From assembly GCA_023433185.1 (NCBI GenBank), contig JAEZEN010000415.1, positions 1 to 6,331 of the forward strand: 6,331 nt of DNA, read 5' to 3'. The DNA is from Pseudomonadota bacterium (lineage in GTDB: Bacteria; Pseudomonadota; Alphaproteobacteria; Rhizobiales; Kaistiaceae). Below the pieces are notes generated by a model. That model did no database searches. It was not told the DNA's origin and saw only the letters and a program-made list of their open reading frames with translations. Each line of letters begins with the position of its first letter. The first letter of the stretch is position 1. Shown piece after piece: positions 64 to 5,323 of this stretch. The position numbers and the translations under genes were made by a program.

Positions 64-1776
64 GTGCCGGAATACATCCGGCTGATCGCGGCGGGCCGCT
101 ACAGCGACGCCTACCTGGTGAACTGGCAGTCGAACGTCTTTCCCGGCATCCTCGGCCGCACCTGCGACCGCCCCTGCGAGCCGGCCTGCCGGCGCGGCCG
201 GGTCGAGGAGGAGCCGGTCGCCATCTGCCGGCTGAAGCGCGTCGCCGCCGACAACAAGAGCGACATCCGGCACCGCCTGCCGGCCGCGCCCGCCGCGCGC
301 ACCGGCAAGCGCATCGCCCTCATCGGCGCCGGCCCGGCCTCGCTCACGGTCGCCCGCGACCTCGCCCCGCTCGGCCACGACATCGTCCTCTACGACGCCG
401 AGCCGCGCGGCGGCGGCATGATCCGCAGCCAGATCCCGCGCTTCCGCCTGCCCGAGGAGGTGATCGACGAGGAAGTCGGCTACGTCGTCGGCATGGGCGG
501 CATCGAGACCCGCTACGGCGCGCGCATCGACAGTCTCCGCGCGGTGCTCGACGCGAATTATGACGCCGTCTTCGTCGGCACCGGCGCCCCGCGCGGCCGC
601 GACCTCGACGTACCGGGCCGCCGGGAAGCGGCTGCCAACATCCACATCGGCATCGACTGGCTCGCCAACGTGTCGTTCGGCCATACCGACCGCATCGGCC
701 GCCGGGTGATCGTGCTCGGCGGCGGCAACACGGCGATGGACTGCTGCCGCACCGCGCGACGCCTCGGCGGCGACGACGTGAAGGTGATCGTCCGCTCCGG
801 CTTCGAGGAGATGAAGGCCTCGCCGTGGGAGAAGGAGGACGCGATGCACGAGGGCATCCCGATCCTCAACTTCCTCGTCCCCAAGGCCTTCACCCACGCG
901 GACGGCCGCCTCACCGGCGTCACCTTCGAAAAGGTCGCCGCGCGCGTCGACGAGCGCGGCCGCCGGTGCCTCGAGCCGACCGGCGAGCCCGACCAGCATT
1001 TCGAATGCGACGACGTCCTCGTCGCCATCGGCCAGGAGAACGCCTTCCCGTGGATCGAGCGCGACATCGGTGTCGCGTTCGACCAGTGGGGCATGCCGGT
1101 GGTCGACCCCGTTACCCATCAGTCGACGCATCCGCGCGTCTTCTTCGGCGGCGACAGCGCCTTCGGACCGAAGAACATCATCTGGGCGGTCGCCCATGGC
1201 CATGCCGCGGCGATCTCAATCGAGCGGCTGCTCTCGGGCGGCGACGTCCATGACCGCCCGCCGCCGCTCGTCACGCTCGTCAGCCAGAAGATGGGCATCC
1301 ACGAGTGGAGCTACGACAACGACATCTCGCTCGAGGCGCGCCGCAAGGTGCCGATGCGCGAGCAGAGCGTGGCGCTCGCCGACATCCGGGCGGAGGTCGA
1401 GCTCGGCTTCGACCAGGGCCTCGGCTACGCGGAAACGCAGCGCTGCCTGAATTGCGACGTGCAGACCGTGTTCACCGAGACGCTGTGCATCGAGTGCGAT
1501 GCCTGCGCCGACATCTGCCCGACCGACTGCATCACCTTCACGCAGAACGGGCCGGAGGAGGAGCTGCGCTCCCGCCTCGCCGCCCCTGCCCTCAACCACA
1601 CCCAGGACATCCTCGTCTCGGCACCGCTCCGCACGGGCCGGATCATGGCCAAGGACGAAGACGTCTGCCTGCACTGCGGGCTGTGCGCCGAGCGCTGCCC
1701 GACGGGCGCCTGGGACATGCGGAAGTTCCTCCTCGAGACGGCGCAGGCCGCGGGCACTGCCGGACAACATCGATGA
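64..1776 (+). CDS. GltD-like FAD/NAD(P) oxidoreductase with C-terminal 2x[4Fe-4S] ferredoxin domain; probable electron-transfer subunit of the 2-oxoacid oxidoreductase (KorC-like), 5' end incomplete
   Basis: This protein probably moves electrons between NAD(P)(H) and the iron-sulfur centres of the KorAB enzyme encoded next to it, in the cytoplasm. Numbering from the GTG at 64, an N-terminal cysteine cluster typical of the glutamate-synthase small-subunit fold is seen at C34, C38 and C42. The FAD dinucleotide-binding motif GAGPAS is at 88-93, the NAD(P)-binding motif GGGNTAMD at 219-226, and the second FAD motif GGD at 362-364. The C-terminus carries CxxC at 461-464 and two ferredoxin motifs CxxCxxCxxxCP at 475-486 and 535-546. 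GltD itself is about 470-480 residues, so the last ~100 residues are an added ferredoxin module. The GTG start is only the first usable codon: the homologous region clearly begins upstream (AHTP precedes it in frame), but a TAA at 16-18 blocks the frame. It overlaps korA by ATGA. Size and context resemble the flavoprotein subunit of the Azoarcus evansii 2-oxoglutarate:NADP+ oxidoreductase (from memory). Confidence 0.9.
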   Translation: MPEYIRLIAAGRYSDAYLVNWQSNVFPGILGRTCDRPCEPACRRGRVEEEPVAICRLKRVAADNKSDIRHRLPAAPAARTGKRIALIGAGPASLTVARDLAPLGHDIVLYDAEPRGGGMIRSQIPRFRLPEEVIDEEVGYVVGMGGIETRYGARIDSLRAVLDANYDAVFVGTGAPRGRDLDVPGRREAAANIHIGIDWLANVSFGHTDRIGRRVIVLGGGNTAMDCCRTARRLGGDDVKVIVRSGFEEMKASPWEKEDAMHEGIPILNFLVPKAFTHADGRLTGVTFEKVAARVDERGRRCLEPTGEPDQHFECDDVLVAIGQENAFPWIERDIGVAFDQWGMPVVDPVTHQSTHPRVFFGGDSAFGPKNIIWAVAHGHAAAISIERLLSGGDVHDRPPPLVTLVSQKMGIHEWSYDNDISLEARRKVPMREQSVALADIRAEVELGFDQGLGYAETQRCLNCDVQTVFTETLCIECDACADICPTDCITFTQNGPEEELRSRLAAPALNHTQDILVSAPLRTGRIMAKDEDVCLHCGLCAERCPTGAWDMRKFLLETAQAAGTAGQHR

Positions 1777-3620
1777 ACCCCACGCCTTCGCGGGTCGTCC
1801 GCGTCAACGACTTCGTCGTCAAGTTCGCCAACGTCAACGGGTCCGGCTCGGCCAGCGCCAACCGCCTCTTCGCCCGCTCCATCCTGCGGATGGGCGTGCC
1901 GATCGCCTCGCGGAACATCTTCCCGTCCAACATCCAGGGCCTGCCGACCTGGTACGAGATCCGGGTTTCCGAGGCGGGCCATCTCGGACGCCGCGGCGGC
2001 GTCGACCTTATGGTCGCGATGAATCCGCAGACCTGGGACAAGGACGTCGCCGAGATCGAGCCCGGCGGCTACCTGTTCTACGATTCGACGCGGCCGCTGC
2101 CGCCATCGAAGTTCCGGGACGACGTGACCGTCCTCGGCCTGCCGCTCACCGCGATCTGCAACGCCCGCTACACCGACCCCCGCCAGCGCCAGCTCTTCAA
2201 GAACATCATCTATGTCGGCGCGCTCGCCGAGATCCTCGGCATCGAGGCGGTCGAGGTCGAAAAGCTGGTCGGCGAGCAGTTCAAGGGCAAGGACAAGCTC
2301 ATCCCGCCCAACATCGAGGCCCTCGAGATGGGCCGCAGCCATGCCCGGGAAGCCTTCGGAACGGTGGACCTTCGCATCCGCCGCGCCGATGCGGTGGGCG
2401 ACCGCATCTTCATCGAGGGGAACGACGCCGCCGGCCTCGGTGCCGTCTATGGCGGGGCGACGGTCTGCGCCTGGTATCCGATCACGCCGTCGACGTCGCT
2501 GGCCGAGGCGTTCGCCAAGCACTGCGCCCGCTACCGCGTCGATCCGGTGAACGGCCGGAACCGCTACGCCATCGTCCAGGCCGAGGACGAACTCGCCTCG
2601 ATCGGCATGGTGATCGGCGCCGGCTGGAACGGCGCCCGCGCCTTCACCGCCACCGCCGGCCCTGGCGTCTCGCTGATGCAGGAGTTCCTCGGCCTCGCCT
2701 ATTTCGCCGAGATCCCCGCGGTGATCTTCGACGTGCAGCGCGGCGGACCGTCGACCGGCATGCCGACGCGGACCCAGCAGTCCGACCTGCTCGCCGCCGC
2801 CTACGCCTCGCACGGTGACACCAAGCACGTCATGCTGCTGCCGGCGGACCCGCACGAGTGCTTCACGATGGCCGCCGATGCCTTCGACCTCGCCGACCGG
2901 CTGCAGACCCCGGTCTTCGTCATGCTCGACCTCGACATCGGCATGAACGAGTGGCTCTGCGAGCCGCTCCGCTGGGAGGAAGGCCGGCGCCTCGACCGCG
3001 GCAAGGTCCTGACTGCCGAGGAACTGGAATCGGGCCGCGATTTCGGCCGTTATCTCGACGTCGACGGCGACGGCATCCCGTACCGCACCTATCCCGGGAC
3101 ACATCCGACGAAGGGCGCCTTCTTCACCCGGGGCACCTCGAAGAACGCCCGCGCCCGCTACTCCGAGGAAGGCTCGGACTACGTCGAGAACATGCAGCGG
3201 CTCTTGCGCAAGTTCGAGACGGCGCGCCGGCTCTGCCCGGCTCCGGTGCGCGACGACGCGCCGGGGGGGTCGCGGATCGGCGTTCTCTACTACGGCTCGA
3301 CCACCCCGGCGATGCACGAGGCGATGGAGGCGATCACCGCCTCCGGCCACCCGCTCGACGCGATGCGGCTCCGCGCCTTTCCGTTCCACGAAAGCGTCGC
3401 CGACTTCATCGACGGGCACGACTTCGTCTTCATCGTCGAACAGAACCGCGACGCCCAGATGCGGACGCTGATCGTCAACGAACTCGGCATCGACCCCGCG
3501 CGCCTGGTGCCCGTCCTCCACTATGACGGCACGCCCGTGACCGCCCGCTTCATCGCCCGCGCCATCGGCGACCACCTCGCCGCGCTCAAGGTCACGCCGA
3601 TGCGGCGGCAGGCGTCATGA
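1773..3620 (+). CDS. korA: 2-oxoacid:acceptor (2-oxoglutarate:ferredoxin-type) oxidoreductase, fused gamma-alpha subunit KorA
   Basis: With KorB this makes a CoA-dependent 2-oxoacid oxidoreductase that decarboxylates a 2-oxoacid (probably 2-oxoglutarate) to the acyl-CoA and passes electrons to a low-potential acceptor; the reaction can run backwards to fix CO2. The 615-residue protein begins with a gamma domain (about residues 10-195). The alpha pyrimidine-binding domain follows from about 210: YPITPST at 235-241, the acidic EDE at 271-273, TAGPG at 294-298, and QRGGPSTGMPT at 322-332 followed by QQSD at 335-338. The C-terminal alpha domain (about 500-605) ends near the HYDGTP motif. The gamma-alpha fusion in this order is typical of two-subunit Kor enzymes of proteobacteria. 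The ATG at 1773 overlaps the previous gene's stop (ATGA) and no strong Shine-Dalgarno is visible, so translational coupling is likely. The last codon before the stop is TCA, so the end of korA is itself an ATGA (3617-3620). 2-oxoglutarate as substrate is inferred from family likeness; other 2-oxoacids are not excluded. Confidence 0.93.
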   Translation: MNPTPSRVVRVNDFVVKFANVNGSGSASANRLFARSILRMGVPIASRNIFPSNIQGLPTWYEIRVSEAGHLGRRGGVDLMVAMNPQTWDKDVAEIEPGGYLFYDSTRPLPPSKFRDDVTVLGLPLTAICNARYTDPRQRQLFKNIIYVGALAEILGIEAVEVEKLVGEQFKGKDKLIPPNIEALEMGRSHAREAFGTVDLRIRRADAVGDRIFIEGNDAAGLGAVYGGATVCAWYPITPSTSLAEAFAKHCARYRVDPVNGRNRYAIVQAEDELASIGMVIGAGWNGARAFTATAGPGVSLMQEFLGLAYFAEIPAVIFDVQRGGPSTGMPTRTQQSDLLAAAYASHGDTKHVMLLPADPHECFTMAADAFDLADRLQTPVFVMLDLDIGMNEWLCEPLRWEEGRRLDRGKVLTAEELESGRDFGRYLDVDGDGIPYRTYPGTHPTKGAFFTRGTSKNARARYSEEGSDYVENMQRLLRKFETARRLCPAPVRDDAPGGSRIGVLYYGSTTPAMHEAMEAITASGHPLDAMRLRAFPFHESVADFIDGHDFVFIVEQNRDAQMRTLIVNELGIDPARLVPVLHYDGTPVTARFIARAIGDHLAALKVTPMRRQAS

Positions 3621-3631
3621 GGGATCGTCGG

Positions 3632-3796
3632 GCCCCCTCTCCCATGGGGAGAGGATACCGCAGCACGGCCGCTTGCGGCCGATGCGGAGGTTGGTGAGGG
3701 GCGGACCGTGCCGGAAGGACTCGCCCCTCACCAAGCTCGACCAGGCCCCGCTCCGCGGGGCGGGTCTCGCTATCCTCTCCCCTTGGGAGAGGGGGC
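3632..3796. repeat. Symmetric compound palindrome made of two inverted REP-like units
   Basis: Two units lie head to head around a centre near 3713. The outer arms 3632-3657 and 3771-3796 are reverse complements with 25 of 26 matches. Each outer arm also folds on itself: an 8-bp stem with a 3-nt loop at 3636-3654 and again at 3774-3792. Inside these lies a second hairpin on each side, 7-bp arms at 3666-3681 and at 3745-3761, with different sequences but the same place. The innermost arms, 3691-3703 and 3722-3734, are a perfect 13-bp inverted repeat containing GGTGAGGGGC, separated by 18 nt. Spacing is nearly mirror-symmetric (11/12 nt and 9/10 nt gaps). This resembles intergenic palindromic elements common in alphaproteobacteria, and in architecture the REPIN (paired REP) elements of other bacteria. 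It lies 11 nt after the korA stop and could end or stabilise the korA transcript. No U-run follows, so I do not call it a standard terminator. Confidence 0.9.
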
Positions 3797-3853
3797 GGGC
3801 CTTCTGTTTGGGCAGAGAACGCCGACCAAAGATGGCAGCACCACGCCCCTCTG

Positions 3854-3870
3854 TCTCCCATGGGGAGAGG
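3854..3870. repeat. Partial third copy of the repeat core hairpin
   Basis: These 17 bases are identical to 3638-3654, the core hairpin of the left unit of the compound palindrome. It folds as a 6-bp stem (TCTCCC/GGGAGA) with an ATG loop. The following GAGGGG is only loosely like the GGTGAGGGGC tail, and the second hairpin is absent, so this looks like a truncated or decayed unit. It ends 14 nt before the stop codon of the antisense DUF559 gene, where it could act as a 3' hairpin for that transcript. Confidence 0.75.
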
Positions 3871-3884
3871 GAGGGGTTCCTGCA

Positions 3885-4235
3885 TCAGCGGCTGGAGGCT
3901 GCCCGGAGCAGCAGCGTCGCGGCGATGTCGTCAACGACACCATCGGTGTTCGACAGCACTTCCTCGTTCCAGAAGCGGAGCACCAAGTACCCAGCACCGC
4001 TGATGATCTGCGTCCGGCGGCGATCCTTTTCCGCAGCCGCTACATGCTGTCCACCGTCCAGCTCGACAATCAGCTTCGCCTCGACACATGCGAAGTCGGC
4101 GATGAATCCCTCGATCGGCATCTGGCGGCGAAACTTGAAGCCATACACCTGCCGTCCCCGCAGCCGCGACCACAGTCGGCCCTCGGCGTCGGTCATCCCC
4201 TTTCGCAAATGGCAGGCAAAGGCGGTGCGGGACAT
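3885..4235 (-). CDS. DUF559 (PF04480) endonuclease-like protein, PD-(D/E)XK/Vsr-related fold
   Basis: This encodes a small protein of the DUF559 family, which is grouped with Vsr-like PD-(D/E)XK nucleases; its cellular role is not established. Numbering from the ATG at 4235 (116 residues), family landmarks run in order: LRK and MTDAE (14-18), LW (21-22), FRRQ (35-38), IADFAC with D47, KLIVELDGGQH with E58, D60 and H64, then D71-R72, and RFWNEEVL from 87. D47, E58 and D60 are the likely metal-binding or catalytic acids, so the core looks intact. A TTG at 4253 in the same frame would add six residues (MGYDAA before MSRTAF); I prefer the ATG because family members usually begin close to this point, but neither start has a clear ribosome binding site. 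The gene is antisense to korA and korB and sits between them, its start only 32 nt from the korB start. GC content over 3901-4260 is about 63% by hand count, lower than its neighbours, hinting at separate acquisition. Confidence 0.85.
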   Translation of the reverse strand: MSRTAFACHLRKGMTDAEGRLWSRLRGRQVYGFKFRRQMPIEGFIADFACVEAKLIVELDGGQHVAAAEKDRRRTQIISGAGYLVLRFWNEEVLSNTDGVVDDIAATLLLRAASSR

Positions 4236-4267
4236 CGCGGCATCGTATCCCAAGACGGGCCACAGCC

Positions 4268-5323
4268 ATGACCTACATCGCCAAGCCGAAGCTCCATCAC
4301 CCCAACCTGCCGAGGAACGACCTCGGCTACACCCGGCGCGACTATGAGGGACCGGTGTCGACGCTCTGCGCCGGCTGCGGCCACGACTCGATCTCGGCGG
4401 CGATCGTCCAGGCCTGCTTCGAGCTCGACCTGCCGCCGCACCGGATCGCCAAGATGTCCGGCATCGGCTGCTCGTCGAAGACGCCGACCTACTTCCTCGG
4501 CCAGAGCCACGGCTTCAACAGCGTCCACGGCCGCATGCCGTCGGTGGCGACGGGCGCCAACCTCGCCAACCGCGAGCTCGTCTATCTCGGCGTTTCCGGC
4601 GACGGCGACTCGGCGTCGATCGGGCTCGGCCAGTTCGCCCATTGCCTCCGGCGCGGCGTCAACATGGTCTACATCGTCGAGAACAACGGTGTTTACGGCC
4701 TCACCAAGGGCCAGTTCTCGGCCACCGCCGATGCCGGCTCGACCTCGAAGAAGGGCGTCGGCAACGCCGACCAGCCGATCGACCTGGTCTCGATGGCGGT
4801 GCTGCTGGGCGCGACCTTCGTCGCCCGCGGCTTCTCCGGCGACAAGGGCCAGCTCGTGCCCCTAATCAAGGCCGCGATCCGCCACCGCGGCGCCGCCTTC
4901 CTCGACGTCATCAGCCCGTGCGTCGCCTTCAACAACCACCCGGGCTCGACCAAGAGCTTCGACTATGTCCGCGAGCACAACGAGGCGGTGAACGCCGTCG
5001 ACTGGATCGAGGGCCGCGACGAGATCGTCACCGACTACGAGCCCGGCACGGTGAGCGACGTGACCCAACACGACGGCACGACCATCCGGCTCCGGAAGCT
5101 CGACGCCGACTACGACCCGACCGACAAGCTCGCCGCCATGGCCCACATCGCCGAACGGCAGGCGGCCGGCGAGGTGATCACCGGCCTCCTCTATCTCGAC
5201 GGCGGTGCCGGCGACCTCCACGAGCGGATGAAGACGGTCGACGCCCCGCTCAACCGGCTCAGCGACGCCGAGCTCTGCCCCGGCCCCGGGCCGCTTGCAG
5301 CGATCAACGCAAGGCTGCGGTAG
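4268..5323 (+). CDS. korB: 2-oxoacid:acceptor (2-oxoglutarate:ferredoxin-type) oxidoreductase beta subunit KorB
   Basis: This is the thiamine-diphosphate- and [4Fe-4S]-binding partner of KorA. In the 351-residue protein, CAGCGHD at 34-40 gives two cluster cysteines (C34, C37). C68 in SGIGCSSK and C218 in ISPC are the expected third and fourth ligands. The GDGD at 111-114 followed by ENNGVYGLTKGQ at 138-149 is the Mg2+/thiamine diphosphate motif. The C-terminal part (about 255-351) with HDGTT, YDPTDK and GLLYLDG matches the tail of 2-oxoglutarate-type beta subunits, so the protein appears complete. The ATG at 4268 is chosen because the conserved N-terminus starts here. Upstream there is only a weak purine patch (GACGGG, 8 nt away) rather than a good Shine-Dalgarno. 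It is split from korA by about 650 bp carrying hairpins and an antisense gene, so it needs read-through or its own promoter. hldD follows after 41 nt. Confidence 0.94.
   Translation: MTYIAKPKLHHPNLPRNDLGYTRRDYEGPVSTLCAGCGHDSISAAIVQACFELDLPPHRIAKMSGIGCSSKTPTYFLGQSHGFNSVHGRMPSVATGANLANRELVYLGVSGDGDSASIGLGQFAHCLRRGVNMVYIVENNGVYGLTKGQFSATADAGSTSKKGVGNADQPIDLVSMAVLLGATFVARGFSGDKGQLVPLIKAAIRHRGAAFLDVISPCVAFNNHPGSTKSFDYVREHNEAVNAVDWIEGRDEIVTDYEPGTVSDVTQHDGTTIRLRKLDADYDPTDKLAAMAHIAERQAAGEVITGLLYLDGGAGDLHERMKTVDAPLNRLSDAELCPGPGPLAAINARLR

Follow-up and report, generated by a model that had tools for sequence, protein, structure and literature searches.

The korA/korB junction and its insert

In a stretch of 6,331 nucleotides from a Kaistiaceae bacterium (positions 1 to 6,331 of contig JAEZEN010000415.1, assembly GCA_023433185.1; this whole stretch is called the window below), a segment carrying a DUF559 gene parts korA from korB, and the sequence CATGA stands at each end of it. 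The question raised by this locus is whether such a cassette seeks out ATGA start/stop overlaps and duplicates them on entry, as an original prediction had proposed. Related junctions and other DUF559 genes lead us to a different answer: survivorship at the junction, turnover of whatever lands in the opened spacer, and a partnership of DUF559 with CT-rich palindromes together make up the explanation that we consider probable. The features concerned are as follows.

1773..3620, + strand: korA, 2-oxoacid:acceptor oxidoreductase subunit alpha (PF01558, PF01855; TIGR03710 over its cut-off)
3617..3620, + strand: ATGA that closes korA, left over from the earlier korA/korB overlap (from the sequence and its relatives)
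3621..4267, no strand: segment parting korA from korB, 647 bases, absent in L170 and L171
3632..3796, no strand: REPIN-like unit made of an inverted pair of CT-rich palindromes, with arms at 3632-3660 and 3768-3796 that are 93% complementary
3854..3876, no strand: a third copy of the palindrome, lying downstream of the DUF559 gene
3885..4253, - strand: DUF559 (PF04480) endonuclease-like gene, starting with TTG at 4253 or ATG at 4235
4268..5323, + strand: korB, 2-oxoacid:acceptor oxidoreductase subunit beta (start ATGACC; NCBIfam matches below cut-off)

The 3' end of korA reads ...GCGTCATGA, with TCATGA at 3615-3620, and a C precedes both this ATGA and the one that opens korB at 4268, so that CATGA borders the insert on each side as had been described; its length had been given as 646 bases and is 647 by our count. 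The final sense codon is indeed unusual, since A is the last base of 16 of the 615 korA codons, and this TCA is the only one among 27 Ser codons. Inside the REPIN-like unit lie the sequences GGTGAGGGG / CCCCTCACC, with arms at 3687-3703 and 3722-3738. An Rfam search of the window gave no match at gathering thresholds.

A korB search of GTDB genomes was limited to the best 80 of at least 591 loci, of which one lacked korA, leaving 79 readable junctions; the nearest relative among them is L001, from a Bauldia genome (89% in korB). The two genes overlap by exactly four bases, ATGA, at 43 of these junctions, overlap otherwise at 2 and are gapped at 34, the gap reaching at least 40 bases in 22. The ATGA overlap is thus ancestral, and the left ATGA of the window is, as had been supposed, the relic of an overlapping start that persists in those 43 relatives. 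Because korB begins Met-Thr, it opens with ATGA at all 22 of the widely gapped junctions, and the korA stop is also ATGA at 9 of them. Both CATGA halves are explained by their own gene, the right by the Met-Thr start of korB and the left by the overlap relic.

What lies between the genes varies. L001 carries a ParE-type module, L036, L064 and L076 carry palindromes of different kinds, the 321-base insert of L027 holds a frame, antitoxin-like by eye, for which Pfam gave no match, and others have short spacers. The flanks shared by the two ends, read by eye from the junction sequences of 13 opened loci, measure 4 bases in L001, L036, L045, L052 and L064, 5 in the window, L088, L169, L004 and L027, 6 in L075, 8 in L168 and at least 16 in L076. 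ATGA alone is constant, and this constancy calls for no target preference, because selection keeps the korA stop and the korB start.

Some individual spacers deserve mention. In L076 (5818-6010), from Bradyrhizobium, the spacer holds CCTCTCCCC palindromes, on either side of which the same stretch of at least 16 bases stands, repeated exactly and taking in the last korA codons. An inverted repeat, GCCTAGATTCGGCAGT, opens and closes the spacer of L057 (5745-6000), from Paucibacter. In other taxa korA and korB are parted by extra open reading frames (ORFs) of 192 aa in L055 (5426-6004) and 461 aa in L056 (4359-5744), the former overlapping korB by four bases, ATGA.

Turnover of cargo in the clade of the window

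We searched 61 relatives of the L001 genome and added the informative junctions L168 and L169. The ancestral overlap is also seen in G002 and G003 (L170 and L171; the genomes that also gave L002 and L005), two Bauldia-type relatives with empty junctions that read GCGGAATGAC. Homologous ParE-type toxin-antitoxin modules lie antisense to the kor operon in L001 (5373-5962), L168 (885-1500) and L169 (790-1500), with toxin identities to L001 of 57% for L168 and 40% for L169; the L169 module also shows an internal duplication of about 55 bases. DUF559 occupies the junction in the window and in G005 (L088, L162, L167), with 75% DNA identity over 251 bases, the same orientation and CATGA flanks in both. 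The more distant L173-L175 (62-66% in korB) have short gaps, and L172 (G007) ends before the junction.

On the korB tree the window pairs with L001 (support 98/94) and G005 pairs with L168 (87/97; 98 in DNA), and DUF559 and the ParE-type module alternate between these sister lineages. The simplest reading of the alternation is a junction that was opened early and whose spacer content then turned over, by replacement or differential loss. Because of it, the CATGA arms are no footprint of the DUF559 cassette, which had been credited with making the duplication. No remnant of a ParE-type module was detected by tblastn in the insert of the window or of L088 (best E 0.08 and 2.8).

In the explanation that we favor, the ancestral ATGA overlap would have been opened before the present cargo settled. 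Only those insertions would survive that still give korA its stop and korB its start, so that ATGA would show on both sides whatever had entered, a consequence of survivorship and not of targeting. The opened spacer would have served as a landing pad, its content turning over.

Upstream of korA, the window contains one further gene of the operon and a second overlap of the same kind, which had been pointed out correctly.

64..1776, + strand: flavoprotein/ferredoxin partner gene, NAD(P)-binding (ORF; Pfam PF07992, PF14691)
1773..1776, + strand: ATGA overlap of flavoprotein and korA (flavoprotein ORF 64-1776, korA in frame from 1773)

The flavoprotein matches the NCBIfam subfamily PRK12771 below its cut-off, and at the window edge (1-64) the N-terminus appears to be absent or displaced, since the PF14691 match begins at profile position 42. 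As a control, the flavoprotein/korA junction has an overlap of exactly four bases in 16 of 71 loci and gaps of at least 40 bases in 8 of 71; the mechanical assignment of start codons limits what these figures can tell.

DUF559 genes and their flanking palindromes

The DUF559 gene of the window encodes 116-122 aa with no internal stop and scores 136.4 bits against PF04480, for which the curated cut-off is 20.6. It keeps the 14 columns that are invariant in an alignment of 27 rows, the window copy being one of them. The other Pfam match, to PF18741, is below cut-off, and no known transposase family was matched. The best fold matches of a predicted model are Vsr- and homing-type nucleases (I-Bth0305I, 3r3p; Vsr, 1cw0), for which we take EDxHD to be the customary label; the protein is thus predicted to have a PD-(D/E)XK, Vsr-like nuclease fold.

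DUF559 matches are present in 38 of 61 relatives of G001. We examined 68 copies, those with enough flank and including that of the window (four short ones were skipped, duplicates merged and weaker matches left out), and scored repeats as paired when aligning the two flanks gave more than 3 points above the highest of 20 shuffled scores. Matching inverted repeats in the form of CT-rich palindromes were found on both sides of 52 copies, all of which also reach 18 points, and the proposal that DUF559 and the palindromes form a recurrent unit is supported by these counts. Among 54 copies from class- and phylum-wide draws, taken as best matches only and with L291, L295 and L296 also among the 68 under other ids, 34 reach 18 points. 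With the same aligner, 18 points were reached by 1 of 600 control genes (kor loci and genes away from DUF559) and by 1 of 329 from ten genomes that also gave cassettes, although the flanks were anchored at called ORF ends for controls and at the matched domain for DUF559. Base composition is not the cause of the flanking repeats, because loci with 43 and 50% GC (L263, L246) are included. A CT-rich palindrome lies nearby on at least one side of 108 of 117 distinct DUF559 genes, as against 26 of 329 controls, and the same palindrome class lies on both sides of 64 of the 117, as against 1 of 329.

Co-occurrence and co-inheritance of DUF559 and palindromes

Palindromes were counted with the pattern CCTCTCCC..GGGAGAGG, and with CCCTCCC..GGGAGGG as a second pattern. 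The 61 relatives contain 0-234 palindromes per genome, with a median of 21.5 in the 38 that have DUF559 and 0 in the 23 that do not; the reversed CCTCTCCC..GGGAGAGG pattern gave 0-3. An even draw of 142 genomes across the class, that evenness being the sole correction for shared ancestry in these genome-level statistics, contained 37 with a strong DUF559 match (best E below 1e-20). At least 5 palindromes were present in 25 of these 37 and in 3 of the 105 others, which include 14 genomes with weaker matches, among them G066 (18 palindromes). When CCCTCCC..GGGAGGG was counted too, the figures became 32 of 37 and 5 of 105; its reversed control was mostly 0-3, with up to 15 in G117. The link holds among genomes of at least 3 Mb, where 20 of 26 with DUF559 and none of 30 others are palindrome-rich, whereas Y1_Tnp, the RAYT-type family, shows no palindrome link (6 of 32 genomes versus 22 of 110).

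Palindrome class follows the gene. A DUF559 tree was built from 117 rows and 108 columns, L096, which holds a stop, being left out; 52 of its 114 inner branches have support under 80%. The CTCTCC class requires 14 changes on this tree versus 37.8 after shuffling, and none of 500 shuffles was as low, a test that asks just whether class labels cluster. The nearest DUF559 from another genome shares the palindrome class in 50 of 53 cases, and copies at orthologous sites inflate both this figure and the clustering on the tree. Within multi-copy genomes, DUF559 similarity averages 0.515 in 29 same-class pairs versus 0.467 in 40 other pairs (permutation p 0.0002; 0.0012 when one near-identical pair is removed).

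DUF559 copies at other sites

The mechanical classification of 63 DUF559 copies by their neighboring genes, six others being dropped because they had no neighbor, placed 38 between codirectional, 22 between convergent and 3 between divergent genes; some sites are mutually orthologous, and at least L093 was misread as convergent. For comparison, 320 gene pairs from ten genomes of the set comprise 197 codirectional, 63 convergent and 60 divergent ones (p 0.003 versus DUF559). Divergent pairs are avoided by DUF559 copies, rather than overlaps sought. The scarcity between divergent genes (3 of 63 versus 60 of 320) looks as if promoters were avoided or purged.

The expectation that ATGA or CATGA would recur at other cassettes was not borne out. 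An upstream ATGA stop accompanies only 6 of the 38 codirectional copies, and two of these are the kor junction itself; L112 is another copy with ATGA on both sides. A DUF559 cassette also lies at one junction in four genomes, L092, L093, L094 and L095 (around 1400-1950), between genes which, from their sequence, we take to be metF and metH. In L092 and L093 the metF reading frame continues into the palindrome as far as the TGA of GGGTGAGGG, which serves as its stop, and the protein is lengthened. This borrowing of a stop from the palindrome is another route of survival, with no duplication of the stop.

Two DUF559 modules of G020 (L129 and L131), located at different sites, align by blastn over 944 bases with 94.5% identity, and their genes are nearly identical. 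Their homology ends at the palindromes, and long repeated REPIN-like units border both. The module is absent at one of the sites in two related genomes, L200 and L207, in which an empty site for the L131 module was sought without success, the intergenic sequence being too diverged. When G024 was compared with G018 (L300-L319 and L320-L339), paired palindromes matched a single longer one (e.g. CTTCACCTCTCCCTGAGGGAGAGGTGA) at two clear places, which suggests decay or gain of REPIN halves.

Discussion

The ancestral overlap, the turnover of its spacer, the flanking repeats, the genome-level co-occurrence and the co-inheritance of palindrome class are established by the observations above. The arrangement in which they combine is that of a gene for a predicted Vsr/homing-type nuclease inside an inverted palindrome pair, gene-less palindromes being scattered between genes, with enzyme and class co-inherited. 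From this we infer movement of the kind known from REP/RAYT: DUF559 would nick or cut the palindrome, or a hairpin formed by it, and repair would copy the repeat to new sites. In its most general form, which we put forward tentatively and which could well be mistaken, the DUF559 proteins would be dedicated nucleases that mobilize or maintain a phylum-wide superfamily of CT-rich repetitive extragenic palindromes (REPs), each lineage recognizing its own class and nicking the palindrome or hairpin, so that repair would copy REPINs between genes with no target-site duplication.

Several observations weigh against the partnership, or against the order of events that we favor at the junction. Sixteen of the 68 copies lack matching repeats, for 9 of the 117 distinct genes the vicinity is free of palindromes of the listed classes, and for the window copy itself the downstream palindrome stands alone, no matching upstream one having been found. 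G028 has 98 palindromes and no DUF559 match, and G015 has 76 with a weak match alone. The DUF559 tree rests on 108 columns, and the inflation by orthologous sites bears on the co-inheritance. The second module of G020 could stem from recombination between repeats, because further repeat units border the modules. About 228 kb of aligned pieces of G024 and G018 yielded no new insertion that could be set cleanly against its exact empty site, and in the flanks outside the paired repeats of 82 DUF559 elements, the boundaries of which are approximate, at least 4 shared bases were seen in 26 versus 18.8 expected from re-paired flanks, with no dominant length. The DUF559 genes of the window and G005 may be orthologous (71% aa), which bears on the order of events at the junction. 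Finally, a DUF559 protein of Caulobacter is read as a mismatch-repair enzyme in PMC12907096.

This last point leads to the alternative that survives best, although we regard it as unlikely, namely that DUF559 does the ordinary work of a Vsr-like enzyme, in repair or restriction, and that palindromes gather around it only because they favor gene ends or act as terminators. PMC12907096 ties the Caulobacter protein, VsrA, to cytosine methylation and SOS, and palindromes are intergenic in general, all 13 in 400 kb lying outside called genes. Among other genes of the same genomes, however, paired inverted repeats and same-class palindromes on both sides were each found once in 329; the class-specific co-inheritance also speaks against this alternative, as does a genome-level link that Y1_Tnp does not have in common and that holds in genomes of at least 3 Mb.

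Slightly less probable still is that DUF559 entered an intact overlap at this junction by a staggered cut that truly duplicated four to five bases, the ParE-type modules having come independently, later or in parallel. The likeness of the window and G005 in gene, orientation and CATGA flanks speaks for this, but the alternation of sister lineages with homologous ParE-type modules would then need several hits on the same four bases, and both in the window and in L088 other bases lie between CATGA and the palindromes.

A cassette that prefers ATGA overlaps and duplicates them on entry is very improbable, for although the window and G005 have CATGA, and L112 ATGA, on both sides, unrelated cargo sits at the same junction in sister genomes, the shared flank is not of fixed length, few codirectional copies follow an ATGA stop, 22 of 63 copies were called convergent (mechanically, at least L093 wrongly), where a start/stop overlap is impossible, and the 82 elements show no clear duplication. 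Copies in unrelated surroundings, which the original prediction itself had named as a refutation, have thus been found. That prediction was right about the junction, the ancestral overlap, the insertion and the recurrent unit, while overlap targeting and a duplication made by the cassette are not supported.

The kor junction illustrates how easily survivorship mimics target choice, as a surviving insert in a start/stop overlap bears the overlap on both sides. DUF559, a common family of "function unknown", gains a testable job, and abundant alphaproteobacterial palindromes gain a candidate enzyme for their spread. No report linking DUF559 to such repeats was found in the open-access literature, which is not proof of absence, and a narrowly worded search there gave none on insertions in start/stop overlaps; the pairing of DUF559 with palindromes appears to be undescribed.

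Comparison with known systems

Unlike Vsr and homing endonucleases, the DUF559 protein considered here is single-domain, is seen with no intron or intein and has no known recognition sequence. In miniature inverted-repeat transposable elements and their parent insertion sequences, gene-bearing and shorter gene-less elements share inverted ends. The DUF559 elements resemble such pairs in that gene-bearing and gene-less forms have common inverted ends, but they match no Pfam transposase family and show no clear target-site duplication at the 82 elements. Of the REPs, the CGTC type prevails in alphaproteobacteria, and PMC3733652 reports no associated transposase for it; our palindromes are likewise abundant in alphaproteobacteria but CT-rich in sequence.

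The closest likeness is to the REP/REPIN-RAYT systems, or "REPtrons", which are described in PMC3733652 and share with the DUF559 elements small palindromes in many intergenic copies, often in inverted pairs, with the enzyme gene between repeats, enzyme and repeat class linked, and several classes per genome. The enzyme differs, being Vsr-like (PF04480) here and an HUH Y1 transposase (TnpA-REP) in REP/RAYT, and our palindromes are of CT-rich CCTCTCCC/CCTCCC types that Y1_Tnp does not track. The DUF559 elements would thus work like REP/RAYT but are no member of it, because the enzyme has another fold. If the partnership proposed here is true, a REP system would rest on a Vsr/homing-type nuclease in place of an HUH transposase, and REP-like selfish repeats would have arisen on two unrelated nucleases.

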